DNA from: Bradymonas sediminis | GTDB lineage: Bacteria; Myxococcota_A; Bradymonadia; Bradymonadales; Bradymonadaceae | NCBI RefSeq assembly: GCF_003258315.1 | Contig: NZ_CP030032.1 | Location: 720,001-784,000, forward strand | DNA length: 64,000 bases | Reading direction: 5' to 3' | In this document: piece after piece, positions 24,903-30,498 of the stretch | Layout of the letters: every line of letters begins with the position of its first letter | How positions within the stretch are numbered: position 1 is the stretch's first letter | The notes under the pieces: model-generated | The model's database searches: none | Seen by the model: only the letters and a program-made list of their open reading frames with translations | What the model was told of the DNA's origin: nothing | Program-made: the position numbers and the translations under genes

Positions 24903-25679
24903 ATGCTGATCGGCTTTAATAACGACGTTGAGTATCGTGGGAAGACCTTCCATATTCAGACCGAAGATCACGGTTTGGGGGGCTCGACGATCGAGACGCA
25001 GCTTTTCTACTCGGGGGCGATCCTCGACACGGTGATGAGCTCCTATGCGGATGCGATTGAGGGGCTGGGCGAGGAAGAAGCTGAGGAGCGGATTCGCGCG
25101 CAGATGAAGGCGAGCCACCGCAGCCTCTTTAAGAAGTTGCGGGCCGGCGAATATGACGAGATGGTCGGTCTGGAGCCGCTGTCGACGGCCGAGGCGCCCG
25201 ATATCGAGGCGGAGGCTGAGGACTTTACGCCCAGCCAGGAGCGTGTTCCCGCCGAGGCCCAGAAGCTCGAAGAGGGCGGGGCCGAGGCGATCGAGGAGTT
25301 CGAGAAGAAGCATTCGGACCCCAAGAAGTCGCTCAATCATATGAGCCTTAATAAGCTCAAGAGCCAGCTGTCCGCGCTCAAAAACCCCGGCGATTCCGCC
25401 AATTTAAGGCCGGCGAGCACGCCCGAGGATACCCAGGAAGACGACGTCGCGCTGGCCACGCAGATCATGGACGCCAGCGGCATTGGTATTGAGTTTAGCT
25501 CGGACCTCGCCGAGATCATCGCCGAGAAAGACGGCGGCGCGCCTCAACCCGCGCGTGCGGCTGCGGCCCCGGCGCTTGTCGACTTTCCCGCCACCGGCGC
25601 GAAGGCCTGGGACGGATGCCGGCCAAGCGACGACGATTTGAGCCTGGTCGATCTGGTCGAGGACTTTTTGGCGAGCTGA
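24903..25679 (+). CDS. Conserved MLIGFNND-type protein, unknown function
   Basis: 258 aa. The first ~80 residues (MLIGFNNDVEYRGKTFHIQT, then a symmetric beta-rich stretch with FYSGAILDTVMSSY) match, from memory, a conserved myxobacterial hypothetical family. The remaining two thirds are Glu/Ala/Pro-rich and probably disordered, ending in a short conserved-looking SLVDLVEDFL motif. The ATG at 24903 is chosen because GGGAG precedes it and the conserved block starts there. No known enzymatic motif. It lies 90 nt ahead of the ftsE-like gene on the same strand. Confidence 0.65.
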   Translation: MLIGFNNDVEYRGKTFHIQTEDHGLGGSTIETQLFYSGAILDTVMSSYADAIEGLGEEEAEERIRAQMKASHRSLFKKLRAGEYDEMVGLEPLSTAEAPDIEAEAEDFTPSQERVPAEAQKLEEGGAEAIEEFEKKHSDPKKSLNHMSLNKLKSQLSALKNPGDSANLRPASTPEDTQEDDVALATQIMDASGIGIEFSSDLAEIIAEKDGGAPQPARAAAAPALVDFPATGAKAWDGCRPSDDDLSLVDLVEDFLAS

Positions 25680-25769: not shown

Positions 25770-26483
25770 ATGATTTCGTGTTATCACCTTATAATTCAAC
25801 ACCCTACGGGCGAGCGTCCGCTCTTAGAAGATATCAGCGTTGATATCGCGCGCGGGGAATTCGTGGAGATTATCGGCCCAAGCGGCGCCGGCAAGAGCCT
25901 GCTCTGCTCGGTGTTCGGGCTGCGTCGACGCGTTCAGGGTGCCAAATGCATCGTGGTCGGGCGCAATATCGACCGCCTCGCCCCCTCGAAGGTAACCCAG
26001 GTTCGCCAGAAAATTGGCACCCATAGCCAGCGCCCCGAGTTCTTAGAAGAGCGCTCCCTATTGCAAAATCTATTGCTCCCACTGGTGGCCCGCGGCAAGA
26101 CCGACGGGGCGCTCCAGAAGGTGCAAACGCTCATCAGTGGCACGGCGCTCGAGGTCCTCTCCGAAGTTCCGATTCGGGGACTTTCGGCCGGCCAGCGCAC
26201 GCTCGCCAGCATCTTTCGCGCGCTCGTCGGACAACCGGAGTTGGTGCTGCTCGATGGCGGTCTCCAGGGGCTGGGCGAGCTTGAGGGCGACGCGATTTCG
26301 GCGCTTCGACAGGTGTCGCGCGCCGGGTCGACCGTGGTGCTCGCTGCGCGTGAGCTATCGCCGTGTGCCGACCTGCGTACCCAGGTGATTCGCCTCGATG
26401 CGGGGCGCGTGGTTTCGGTGCAACGTAGCGCGGAGCCCGAACCCGATGTGACTTCGGTCTCGGGCATCACGGAGGTGCGCTGA
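25770..26483 (+). CDS. ftsE: FtsE-like ABC ATPase with degenerate catalytic residues
   Basis: 237-aa ABC ATPase. Context (FtsX-like next, then an EnvC-like protein) identifies it as FtsE of the septal FtsEX complex. Walker A is intact (GPSGAGKS, 36-43) and a Q-loop Gln is present. However, the signature reads LSAGQ (138-142), Walker B is LVLLDG (Asp162, with Gly163 where the catalytic Glu should be), and the H-loop His position is Arg194 (LAARE). It should bind ATP but may hydrolyse it poorly. Its stop overlaps the ftsX start by one base (TGATG). Confidence 0.85.
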   Translation: MISCYHLIIQHPTGERPLLEDISVDIARGEFVEIIGPSGAGKSLLCSVFGLRRRVQGAKCIVVGRNIDRLAPSKVTQVRQKIGTHSQRPEFLEERSLLQNLLLPLVARGKTDGALQKVQTLISGTALEVLSEVPIRGLSAGQRTLASIFRALVGQPELVLLDGGLQGLGELEGDAISALRQVSRAGSTVVLAARELSPCADLRTQVIRLDAGRVVSVQRSAEPEPDVTSVSGITEVR

Positions 26484-27385
26484 TGTTACGTCCCGCGAAT
26501 GAGGCGCTCAAAGAGCGGCTTTTCGAATCCGCGACCGCCACCACGGTGCTCGCGTTTTCGATGATTATTCCGTGCTTGATCGCGCTGTTCGGCGTCTTTT
26601 TTGCCGACACGGCGAAGAGCTATCTGAGCGTGTACCGGCCGGTGGTTTATCTGAGCGCCGAGGCCGGCGAGGCGCAGGCGAAGCAGCTCGCTGAGGAAGT
26701 TGGCAAATGGTCGGGGGTTGGGGAGGTCGAGGTTCGCGCGCCGCAGCAAGCGTTTGAGACGCTTCAGCAGCGCGTCGGCGAGCAGGAAGTCTCACGCCTT
26801 GGCGTCACGCCGAAGATGTTGCCCTATAGTTTGGTGCTGGTGCCGACGGTGCCGCTGGTCGGGCATATTGACCTGATCGCTCAGGTCGAAGGGTTGCCCG
26901 CGCGCACCCATGTCGCCACGGTGGACGTGCCGTCGGCGAAGGCCGCGCGCACCTTGATCGCCGCGCGTTGGTTGCTGACCGCGGGCATTGTGCTGCTTTT
27001 TGTCGTGCTCATTATCGGCATCGCTCAGATGCGAATCCTCTTGATGCAATTGGCCGACGATGAGGAAAAAGAGGCTCGGCTGCTCGCCTTTTTTGGCGCG
27101 CCCGAGTCGGGCTTTCGTCGCGCGACCCTCACCCGCGGCGTGACGCTTGGGTTATGGGCCGGATTGCTCGCCCTGATTCTATTGGCGATGATGCTCTTCA
27201 TCTGGCATTACGCGCGCCCTGCGATCTTTGGGCTCGAAGATGCTACCTTGGGTTGGGCGTGGCTGATTATCGTCGTGCCTATTCTATTGGGGCCCGCGGC
27301 CGGATTCTTGGCGGCTGGGCTTGTGAATCGTAAGCGACTCAAGCGAAATGATACCGATGATCTTGGACTCGAAATCTTGCTCTAA
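26483..27385 (+). CDS. ftsX: FtsX-like permease domain protein
   Basis: 300 aa with the FtsX plan: a cytoplasmic N-terminus, TM1 (about 20-42), a ~110-aa periplasmic domain (PVVYLSAEAGEAQAKQLAEE and following), then three TMs (about 163-185, 212-238, 255-280). A cytoplasmic loop between TM2 and TM3 holds the MRILLMQLADDEEKEARLLAFFGAPE coupling segment, and the C-terminus is basic. In E. coli FtsX, the periplasmic loop recruits EnvC to activate septal amidases; an EnvC-like gene follows 22 nt downstream. Translationally coupled to ftsE. Confidence 0.88.
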   Translation: MLRPANEALKERLFESATATTVLAFSMIIPCLIALFGVFFADTAKSYLSVYRPVVYLSAEAGEAQAKQLAEEVGKWSGVGEVEVRAPQQAFETLQQRVGEQEVSRLGVTPKMLPYSLVLVPTVPLVGHIDLIAQVEGLPARTHVATVDVPSAKAARTLIAARWLLTAGIVLLFVVLIIGIAQMRILLMQLADDEEKEARLLAFFGAPESGFRRATLTRGVTLGLWAGLLALILLAMMLFIWHYARPAIFGLEDATLGWAWLIIVVPILLGPAAGFLAAGLVNRKRLKRNDTDDLGLEILL

Positions 27386-27407
27386 GGCGAAAGCGGGGGA
27401 GGTCGAT

Positions 27408-28490
27408 ATGGCGCTCAAAACGCGAAGGTTCTCGCGCGGTCGCGTCGCGCTTCTCTGCGGGATACTGGCGCTTCCGCTGACGCTGGCCGCGCCCAGTCTG
27501 GACGCCCAGCCTGTCGGCGCGAAGACGTCTTTTGTCGGGCGACTCGACGCCATCGAAGCGCGCATCACCCGGGGCAACCGCGAGATCGTTGAGCTCAAGA
27601 AAGCCGCGGATTTGGCGAGCAAATCGCTGAGCCGGGACGCCGCGCCATTTGATACGGCCCAGCGTGCGCGCAATAAGGTTCGGGCGCAGGTGTTGGAGCA
27701 ATTGGTCGCCTGGGATAAAGCGCATCGCAGCGGCGAGCGCGCCGGGCGTTTTTTGCCGCCCGGGCAAGCCGAGGATGCGCAAATGCTGCTGGCCGCGGCG
27801 CACTCCGAGGCGCTCAGTCGCCGGGTCTCCGATATCGACGTGCTCCAGATTATCGACGTGGACGTGCGGCGCACGCGCCAGAGCGTGGCGCAGCGGGCCG
27901 GGATGAGCGTCGAGATCGCGCAGAATACGGCGACCGTTAAAGCCGCCGAGAAGACGCGTAAAAGGCTGGTCAATGAGGCGAACTCCAGCGCCAATCAGAA
28001 GCAGGTCGAGCGCGAGGTTCGCGCCAGCGACCAGGACCTCGAGAATTCGCTGGGGATGCTGCTTAAGAATTCGACCGAGCGCGACTTCCACCGGCTCAAG
28101 GGCACGCTTCGCCCGCCGGTGTCGGCCGAGGTTGCCTTTGGCTACGGTCCGCAAAAGCAAGCGAAGTCCATGAGTTATGTGCGCCACACCGGGCTGACCT
28201 GGAAGCTCGACGAGGGCACCTCGGTGAAGTCGGTCGCCGGCGGACTCGTCGTCTTCGCCGGGCGCATGGAGGGCTTCGGTGAGCTCATTATCCTGGACCA
28301 CGGCCAGCAATATCATAGCGTCTACGCCCACCTGAAAACGCTGGACGTTAAGGTCGGCGACACGGTAGAACGCGGCGCCTCGATCGCAAGCACCGGGCAA
28401 ACCGGCAGCTTCGACGGGCCGAAATTATATTTTGAATTGCGCAAAAATGGCCACCCCATCAATCCGACGACATGGTTTATTCAGCCCTAA
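27408..28490 (+). CDS. EnvC-like murein hydrolase activator, degenerate LytM/M23 domain
   Basis: 360 aa, exported (signal peptide about 1-33), with a helical/coiled-coil segment (40-230) and a C-terminal LytM domain (about 255-355). Zinc and catalytic positions are mostly lost: His260 is kept, but the Asp of HxGxD is Thr264, and the HLH motif is Lys339-Leu-Tyr341; His307 (YAHL) remains. This matches EnvC/NlpD-type non-enzymatic activators rather than an active endopeptidase. The ATG at 27408 has GGGGGAGG upstream and a typical signal sequence, so I prefer it to the upstream start at 27348. Directly behind ftsX, it is the expected periplasmic partner. The stop overlaps the GT2 start by 19 nt. 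Confidence 0.87.
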   Translation: MALKTRRFSRGRVALLCGILALPLTLAAPSLDAQPVGAKTSFVGRLDAIEARITRGNREIVELKKAADLASKSLSRDAAPFDTAQRARNKVRAQVLEQLVAWDKAHRSGERAGRFLPPGQAEDAQMLLAAAHSEALSRRVSDIDVLQIIDVDVRRTRQSVAQRAGMSVEIAQNTATVKAAEKTRKRLVNEANSSANQKQVEREVRASDQDLENSLGMLLKNSTERDFHRLKGTLRPPVSAEVAFGYGPQKQAKSMSYVRHTGLTWKLDEGTSVKSVAGGLVVFAGRMEGFGELIILDHGQQYHSVYAHLKTLDVKVGDTVERGASIASTGQTGSFDGPKLYFELRKNGHPINPTTWFIQP

Positions 28491-29266
28491 ATCGCGACTT
28501 CGCCAACGGCGAAGTTGTGGACGCAAAGAAGCGCATCGCAGTGGTGATTCCCGCCTATTGTGAGACCCGTTTATTGCCCGCGACCCTCGCCTCGATCCCG
28601 GCTTTTGTCGACCAGATTATCGTGGTCGATGACGGCTCGCCCGACAAAACCTTTGAGGTGGCGGGCGCGGCCGCGCAGAGCGACGCGCGCGTGAACGTCA
28701 TCCGCATGGGCTATAATTACGGGGTCGGGCGCGCGATTACGCGCGGCTATGAATACGCGCTGGAGTCAGGCGCCGACGTCATCGCCGTGATGGCCGCCGA
28801 TAACCAGATGGACCCCGACGACCTCGCCCGGGTCATCGCCCCGGTCCTTGCCGGCCAGGCCGACTACGCCAAGGGCAACCGGCTGGCCCACCCGGATAGC
28901 TATCAGATGCCGCAGATGCGCCGCTTCGGCACGCGCTTGCTCGGTAAATTGACCGGCGTCATCGGCGGCTATGCCGAGCTTGATGACGCTCAATGCGGCT
29001 ATACGGCCATCAGCGCGCGGGCGCTAGAGCATCTGCCGCTGCACAAACTCTACCCGCGCTACGGCTACCCGAATGACCTGATCTTGCGTCTTTCGGAGGT
29101 CGGCGCGCGCATCGAGCAGCCGGTGGTTCGACCGGTATACGCGACCGAGCAATCGGGCCTGCATATCCCCAGGGTGATCCTGCCCATCGCGGGCATCCTC
29201 GCGCGCGGGGCGCTTCGACGGGCGTCGAATCGCCTGCGCGGTCGGCCGAAGATGCTCGCTGCATGA
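28472..29266 (+). CDS. Glycosyltransferase family 2 (polyprenyl-phosphate type)
   Basis: 264-aa soluble GT2 similar to dolichyl/undecaprenyl-phosphate sugar transferases. It has VVIPAYCETRLLPATLAS, VVDDGSPD (nucleotide-sugar Asp), GVGRAITRGY, AADNQMDP (DxD-like metal site) and YGYPNDLILR. It lacks the C-terminal TM pair found in GtrB-type enzymes. The ATG at 28472 overlaps the EnvC-like gene and has no clear Shine-Dalgarno; a GTG at 28517 just before the conserved core is an alternative. It overlaps the GT4 gene by 4 nt. Product unknown. Confidence 0.85.
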   Translation: MVYSALNRDFANGEVVDAKKRIAVVIPAYCETRLLPATLASIPAFVDQIIVVDDGSPDKTFEVAGAAAQSDARVNVIRMGYNYGVGRAITRGYEYALESGADVIAVMAADNQMDPDDLARVIAPVLAGQADYAKGNRLAHPDSYQMPQMRRFGTRLLGKLTGVIGGYAELDDAQCGYTAISARALEHLPLHKLYPRYGYPNDLILRLSEVGARIEQPVVRPVYATEQSGLHIPRVILPIAGILARGALRRASNRLRGRPKMLAA

Positions 29267-30498
29267 AGATCCTTGTCATCACGAGCAGCTTGCCGCGATT
29301 TCGCGGCGATATCGCGGGGCGCTTCGTCTTTGAGTGGGCGCAGCATCTTCGATATCTGGGCCACGACCTACGCGTCTTCAGCTGGGCGGATTCCTCGGTG
29401 TCGCCCGATGCAGCGCCGGAGTCGGCCGACTTCGAGGTGCTGCGCGTTCCCTACGCGCCGCCCGGATATGACACGCTTTTTTATGGTGCGGGAACCCCCG
29501 AAAATATTCGCCAGAATCCCTGGCGCGCGCTGCTCGCTGCCCCGGCCGTCGCGGCGATGAGCGTGCGCGTGCTCGTCGAAATCGCGCGTGAGCGCCCCGA
29601 TATTATCGTGGGGCATTGGCTGCTTCCGGCGGGATTTCTCGCCCGATTCTTGGGGAATCTCACCGGCATCCCGAGCCTAATCGTCGGGCATTCAGGCGGG
29701 GTGCATCTGCTCGAGCAGCTATCGACGGGTCTCCTCGAAAAGATCGGGATCGGCCAGGCGCTGGCGCGCTTTTGTGCGAGTGGAGCGATGACGGTTCCGA
29801 CCAAAGCGCTGGCCGATAAATTTGCGGGAGTGCTCGGTTCTGCGGGCGATTCGACGATGATTTTGCCCATGGGGTTTGAGCCGGCGAGGCGCTCGTTGCC
29901 CGGGCAGGTGACGCCTCGAGAAGACGCGCGCGATCATTGGTTATGCATGGGGCGCCTCGTCGAGATAAAGGGCGTCGACCTGGCGATTGAGGCGTTTTGC
30001 CGCGCGGATTTTGCGCGCCCGACGACGCTTCATATCGCCGGCGATGGGCCGGAGCGGGCGCGGCTTGAGGCGCTGGCCCGTGGATTGCGCGGCGAGGGCG
30101 AAAACACGCGCGTTGAGTTTCACGGGGTGGTGAGCGGGGCGGCGAAGGCGGCGCTTTTGCAGCGCTGCGGCTTCGCGCTCTTTTGCTCGAAGACCCTCGA
30201 CAACGGGCGTCACGAGGGGCTCCCGATTAGCTTTTTGGAGGCGGCCAGCCACGGCGCGATCGCGCTATGCGCCGAGATTCCGGGCCTGTCGGATTATGTG
30301 GTGACGCCTGATGCCCAGACGGTTTATACCCGCGACATATCTGCCTGGACCCGCGCCATCGAGCGACTCGCCGGCTCCTCCGAGCAGGTGCACCGACAGC
30401 TAAGCGAAGCCCAGCGCGCGCGGGTCGACGCGCTCGCCTGGCCCGTGCTCATTGCTAAATGGGACGCGTTGCTCCGCACGGTCGCAGTCCAAAGGTAA
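29263..30498 (+). CDS. Glycosyltransferase family 4
   Basis: 411 aa with a GT-B fold. The N-terminal domain has ITSSLPRFRGDIAGRFV and HSGGVHL. The C-terminal donor-binding domain has GRLVEIKGVDLAIEAF, HIAGDGPERARLE and the EX7E motif in HEGLPISFLEAASHG. Retaining sugar transfer in the cytoplasm is expected. The start overlaps the GT2 stop (ATGA), making the last gene of the ftsE-ftsX-envC-GT2-GT4 run. The acceptor is unknown; the context suggests an envelope glycan. Confidence 0.9.
   Translation: MKILVITSSLPRFRGDIAGRFVFEWAQHLRYLGHDLRVFSWADSSVSPDAAPESADFEVLRVPYAPPGYDTLFYGAGTPENIRQNPWRALLAAPAVAAMSVRVLVEIARERPDIIVGHWLLPAGFLARFLGNLTGIPSLIVGHSGGVHLLEQLSTGLLEKIGIGQALARFCASGAMTVPTKALADKFAGVLGSAGDSTMILPMGFEPARRSLPGQVTPREDARDHWLCMGRLVEIKGVDLAIEAFCRADFARPTTLHIAGDGPERARLEALARGLRGEGENTRVEFHGVVSGAAKAALLQRCGFALFCSKTLDNGRHEGLPISFLEAASHGAIALCAEIPGLSDYVVTPDAQTVYTRDISAWTRAIERLAGSSEQVHRQLSEAQRARVDALAWPVLIAKWDALLRTVAVQR

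Follow-up and report, generated by a model that had tools for sequence, protein, structure and literature searches.

A stretch of 64,000 nucleotides from Bradymonas sediminis (the window; positions 720001–784000 of NZ_CP030032.1, the single contig of a 5,045,683-base genome) carries a block of genes in the order romY-ftsE-ftsX-envC-GT2-GT4, where GT denotes glycosyltransferase. We consider it likely that this block encodes a true FtsEX-EnvC division complex in which FtsE, the nucleotide-binding domain (NBD) subunit, turned into a nonhydrolyzing pseudo-ATPase in the ancestor shared by the members of the window's family, the H-loop and ABC signature having been lost earlier, in the ancestor of the order Bradymonadales. 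The evidence comprises the orthology of the three subunits, the invariance of residues that hold ATP, the loss of hydrolytic and signature residues, purifying selection, and a genome search in which no second FtsE/FtsX pair was found.

Among NBD families in NCBIfam, the window FtsE best matches the FtsE model TIGR02673; its 94 bits do not reach the curated equivalog cut-off of 265, a score to be expected of a diverged pseudo-ATPase. The gene directly precedes ftsX, which encodes an FtsX_ECD domain, and the AlphaFold2 model of FtsE (pLDDT 90.6) matched E. coli FtsE in a Foldseek search (8hd0_A, TMt 0.91), with MacB NBDs also among the matches. As a motif reference we used FtsE of E. coli K-12, taken from genome record NC_000913 and aligned with the window and family FtsEs. 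K41, D162, E163, and H195 of the E. coli protein align with K42, D162, G163, and R194 of the window protein, which consequently retains the Walker A lysine and the Walker B Mg-binding aspartate but has glycine for the catalytic glutamate and arginine for the H-loop histidine. An earlier reading of this DNA from its letters alone (the original prediction) had described exactly these two losses next to an intact Walker A, but missed that the ABC signature is also altered, to LSAGQ.

These changes extend across the family, which we tallied in one alignment of 19 FtsEs from 19 genomes (including that of the window) and 13 genera. G36, G41, K42, and D162 are invariant, whereas position 163 is Gly in 13 sequences, Ala in 4, Ser in 1, and Asp in 1, but never Glu, and position 194 is Arg in 17, Ser in 1, and Thr in 1, but never His. 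The LSGG signature is intact in none of the 19 and its Gly-Gly pair is missing throughout, the relatives being more strongly altered than the window protein; the Q-loop Gln is kept in 17. Because 18 related genomes carry the same losses, chance or sequencing error can be excluded for the window FtsE. No conserved neighboring Glu or His that might take over the catalytic roles was found in the 19 sequences, in which D162 is the sole invariant acid near the site and E195 occurs in only 3. Most family FtsEs also have a Cys just before the Q-loop Gln (GSCxQ), where the window protein has His (residues 85–87, window positions 26022–26030), and share a conserved LPxVxRG stretch; both may be marks of a new partner surface.

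Within one genus, the ratio of nonsynonymous to synonymous substitution rates (dN/dS) is 0.06–0.11 for FtsE, the lowest or near-lowest of the block, 0.14–0.20 for FtsX and EnvC, and 0.24–0.34 for GT4; the family FtsE is a conserved protein under purifying selection. Related lineages without any ftsEX (genome G022 and family f4) could suggest that ftsE is a decaying remnant without function, but this is scarcely credible given an open frame in all 19 genomes, invariant K42 and D162, and overlaps with ftsX of 1–7 bases nearly throughout, and for the window's family the selection data refute it. Judged by its residues, the FtsE of this family is a predicted lineage-wide pseudo-ATPase, neither a sequencing error nor a dying gene.

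Alignment across the phylum at the Walker B Glu and the H-loop, as the original prediction had proposed, showed that the losses are family-wide and that the catalytic Glu is present in the readable FtsEs outside the order. In the class relatives f3 and f7, FtsE is fully canonical, an M23 gene lies downstream, and romY lies upstream of ftsE in most loci for which the fetched stretch extends that far. Sampled FtsEs with readable motifs from elsewhere in the phylum all have the catalytic Glu, and nearly all have every motif. One NBD beside an FtsX_ECD gene outside the class (L164:2162–2914; genome G094, family f25) keeps DEP but reads LSAGE and ASND, with Asn for the H-loop His; this may be an early stage of the same decay, reached independently. 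In the sister family f2 the decay is graded: FtsE of G025 has lost the signature and the H-loop His but keeps Walker A and DEP, that of G023 has lost Walker A in addition to the signature and His, that of G021 has lost all motifs, and G022 has no ftsEX, a short LytM gene coming straight after its romY, with ctpA, GT2, and GT4 next in line. Two f4 genomes likewise have romY-lytM-ctpA without ftsEX, and neither G022 nor the searched f4, f5, and f6 genomes gave an FtsX_ECD match. Where ftsEX is absent and romY adjoins a LytM gene followed by ctpA, which encodes an S41 protease (L121:5026–9516 in G022; L111 and L112 in G027 and G030), RomY and LytM possibly form a functional pair without FtsEX. 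Phylogenetic analysis placed the family FtsEs in one clade (support 100/100) and split them together with the f2 FtsEs from the rest (support 89/91), with other NBDs of the window genome falling elsewhere, although long branches leave finer placement unsure. The simplest history would be that the signature and His disappeared in the order's ancestor, after which the window's family lost Glu and f2 lost other motifs.

The partners of FtsE are less unusual. The best PDB match of the family FtsX profile is a solved FtsX (8tzj, E = 1e-24), and that of the family EnvC profile is EnvC (8tzk, E = 2e-32), in an alignment that spans the coiled coil and LytM domain and is nearly full-length (8tzk profile positions 39–363 on chain 56–380). 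V. cholerae EnvC was the top Foldseek match of the EnvC model and E. coli EnvC was also matched. The coiled coil comprises residues 62–238, with AlphaFold2 helices at 62–133, 138–211, and 214–238; this numbering starts at ATG 27348, from which the reading frame is open (27348–28490), while the signal peptide suggests a start at ATG 27408. By profile and fold, the window is thus read as encoding orthologues of FtsE, FtsX, and EnvC. An Amidase_3 gene is retained in the genome (position 4885621) and has, between its conserved motifs, an insertion of a length that we take to be that of AmiC; this insertion is probably an autoinhibitory helix. FtsA is present as well (position 2457603, 476 bits), which rules out its loss as the cause of the FtsE degeneracy. 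Loss of zinc residues from the LytM domain, to which the original prediction had drawn attention, is real: the window reads HTGLT for HxGxD and KLYFE for HLHFE, and the Asp of HxGxD and both His of HLH are lost in every complete family member. The loss is nevertheless no novelty but ordinary for EnvC-type activators, because LYFE also stands at the second motif (second histidine position) in relatives whose FtsE is canonical, and nonenzymatic LytM activators are a known class (PMC10336132).

We next consider whether the missing hydrolysis is supplied from elsewhere, an unlinked ATPase having been among the original suggestions. About 30 NBDs of the genome outscore the window FtsE against the FtsE model, and one of them, at 961486–962178, has no permease beside it; a canonical ATPase could on these grounds pair with FtsX or with the window FtsE to give an active or half-active complex. 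This is very unlikely. The top matches that were examined fit LolD, MacB, or DevA better than FtsE or are Mla-type NBDs that sit with MlaE permeases, only one FtsX_ECD protein is encoded in the genome, and neither a second FtsE nor a second FtsX was found there. The lone NBD is of LolD/MacB type; several family members have no close orthologue of it, and in some relatives it lies ~2 kb from a large PF02687 permease, so that its candidacy as the missing ATPase is unsupported.

The role of FtsEX in Bradymonadales is most likely, as far as motifs and conservation indicate, that of a noncycling recruiting scaffold, perhaps ATP-bound, that brings EnvC and the amidase to the site of division. FtsE might still bind Mg-ATP but would not cycle; its part would be that of a structural foot in the cytoplasm, recruiting FtsX-EnvC to the divisome, and EnvC would there activate the retained AmiC-type amidase via its LytM domain. 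Timing would be set by recruitment, or by a partner in the cytoplasm (the neighboring RomY, for example), rather than by ATP hydrolysis. There is precedent in E. coli, in which ATPase-dead FtsE(D162N)X recruits EnvC and promotes cell separation if it is unable to block FtsA and NlpD is present (PMC7343993). Several observations weigh against a scaffold of this kind. The E. coli variants K41A and E163Q are both reported to block amidase activation (PMC12505981), and ATPase-dead FtsEX blocks septal synthesis via FtsA (PMC7343993), which is kept here; compensating changes must therefore be assumed. ATP binding by the family FtsE is, moreover, read from conserved residues, and the window signature is less altered than that of its relatives, making weak activity in the window species possible.

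The original prediction had also raised the idea that ATP binding alone does the switching. In this case, binding would drive an open/close switch that is reset by nucleotide exchange, with R194 replacing the H-loop His in sensing the γ-phosphate. EnvC activation in E. coli is driven by ATP binding, the activating step, and hydrolysis resets the complex (PMC12505981); the invariance of K42 and D162 and the retention of R194 and the Q-loop Gln in 17 of the 19 family FtsEs each fit such a switch. A closing cycle driven by ATP is doubtful, however, because no family member has an intact signature to close the ATP sandwich, and nucleotide binding itself is dispensable in close relatives since members of the sister family have lost Walker A. 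We regard a switch by binding alone as possible but not probable.

The scaffold reading leaves room for RomY, whose gene the original prediction omitted from the block. The romY-ftsE-ftsX-envC order is kept in all 18 further loci of the family as far as contigs reach, and romY adjoins ftsEX in every family locus with both ends visible. Outside the family, 43 of the 87 other phylum genomes with both genes, in 11 families outside the class, have romY no more than 3.5 kb from ftsX, but among 25 genomes of f14 and f18 not one has it beside ftsEX. Eleven loci from many families of the phylum have romY directly upstream of a canonical ftsE. A scan of the genome contigs with a single FtsX protein gave no match, and a RomY alignment was used instead; the family members that it matched include Lujinxingia vulgaris and metagenome-assembled genomes of Lujinxingiaceae and Bradymonadaceae. 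RomY N-terminal homologues were also seen in Nitrospirae, Acidobacteria, Aminicenantes, Dadabacteria, and CSSED10-310 genomes (L189–L198), and in the stretches fetched there none had ftsEX next to it.

In M. xanthus, RomY is a co-activator of the GTPase-activating protein (GAP) MglB in motility polarity (PMC9481161). At about 520.6–521.9 kb, the window genome has a Robl_LC7 MglB-like gene and, just downstream of it, a small GTPase gene whose product matched no NCBIfam model and appears MglA-like by reading of its sequence. RomY with this MglA/MglB module might have taken over switching, such that a small-GTPase cycle on FtsE replaces ATP hydrolysis, and it may, speculatively, be RomY/MglA that supplies switching for FtsEX. 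The romY-ftsEX adjacency and the joining of romY and lytM where ftsEX is lost would agree with this; however, the only known role of RomY is that of MglB co-GAP in motility polarity (PMC9481161), and because romY is equally linked to fully canonical ftsE, so that linkage does not track the loss of hydrolysis, it cannot simply be taken as a replacement for ATP hydrolysis. We consider such a takeover unlikely, and more improbable still the specific version in which the Bradymonadales moved the division hydrolase switch from ATP hydrolysis by FtsE to docking of RomY-MglB-MglA on a nonhydrolyzing FtsE, with ftsEX deleted and romY-lytM left wherever the dock became unneeded.

The open reading frames of ftsE, ftsX, the envC-like gene, GT2, and GT4 lie where they had originally been placed (table 1). 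In 12 family loci, GT2 and GT4 come after envC, GT4 being on the opposite strand at one locus; neither gene lies nearby in the two loci of genus g4 with contigs extending far enough, and in f2 ctpA lies between envC and the glycosyltransferase genes. The original prediction saw in the gene overlaps a tie of both enzymes to division. Their linkage is real and conserved in the order Bradymonadales, and GT2 and GT4 are conserved neighbors for which gene order alone does not imply a division role.

Table 1. Features of the romY-ftsEX-envC block (window coordinates)
Feature	Position	Strand	Evidence
romY homologue, first gene of the conserved block	24903..25679	+	RomY N-terminal domain (NF053858 RomY_Nterm, 100.8 bits, cut-off 50); conserved C-terminal LVExFLA motif
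ftsE, predicted pseudo-ATPase NBD	25770..26483	+	Pfam ABC_tran; best NCBIfam match TIGR02673; AlphaFold2 and Foldseek; motifs
Walker A GPSGAGKS, FtsE residues 36–43, kept	25875..25898	+	G36, G41, K42 in 19/19
ABC signature LSAGQ, FtsE residues 138–142, replacing LSGGE/Q	26181..26195	+	Gly-Gly pair in 0/19
Walker B D162 kept, then G163 replacing catalytic Glu	26253..26258	+	D162 in 19/19; position 163: G13 A4 S1 D1
R194 at H-loop His position	26349..26351	+	R17 S1 T1
ftsX, permease-like subunit with FtsX extracellular domain	26483..27385	+	TIGR00439, 67 bits; FtsX_ECD PF18075, 30.5 bits (cut-off 23.5); PDB 8tzj
envC-like M23 activator: signal peptide, long coiled coil, LytM domain	27408..28490	+	PDB 8tzk; Foldseek
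LytM/M23 domain, zinc ligands lost as in EnvC-type activators	28182..28466	+	Pfam Peptidase_M23; motif comparison
GT2, polyprenyl-phosphate glycosyltransferase-like, conserved neighbor	28472..29266	+	PF00535, 80.7 bits; best NCBIfam match PpgS
GT4 glycosyltransferase, conserved neighbor	29263..30498	+	PF13692/PF00534

FtsEX is considered to be a switch driven by ATP, and the role and regulation of hydrolysis are stated to be open (PMC7343993, PMC12505981); a search of the open-access literature gave no paper describing an FtsE that is degenerate in nature. A lineage related to Myxococcus that can be cultured, and in which an FtsE without ATPase residues has become fixed by evolution, is a natural test of what ATP hydrolysis does, and sister lineages ranging from canonical to deleted FtsE let a scaffold role be separated from a role of hydrolysis. 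Similarly, no paper linking RomY with FtsX was found in the open-access literature, and we found no mention of FtsE, FtsX, or an operon in the M. xanthus RomY paper (PMC9481161); the phylum-wide linkage of romY and ftsEX points to an unstudied connection between MglA polarity and cell division. The window genome shares with Myxococcus RomY-MglB-MglA the RomY N-terminal family and MglB- and MglA-like genes, whereas M. xanthus RomY serves motility polarity and f14 and f18 of the phylum lack the adjacency to ftsEX.

In comparison with FtsEX-EnvC of E. coli, V. cholerae, and P. aeruginosa, the window system has the same three subunits, with roles assigned by profile and fold, an EnvC with a coiled coil and degenerate LytM domain, and an Amidase_3 partner encoded elsewhere; unlike those systems, its FtsE is without the catalytic Glu, the H-loop His, and an intact signature, and its ftsE-ftsX-envC genes stand in one block with romY and two glycosyltransferase genes. 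The window FtsE is the natural equivalent of an E163 mutant with the nucleotide-holding residues present, but whereas the E. coli mutants D162N and E163Q are engineered and defective, its state is fixed family-wide and includes loss of the H-loop and signature. Loss of the catalytic Glu and signature residues from an NBD is also seen in the degenerate sites of TmrAB, TM287/288, and BmrCD; these transporters are heterodimers with one working site, whereas FtsE is the sole NBD found for FtsX here, which would make both sites of the complex degenerate.

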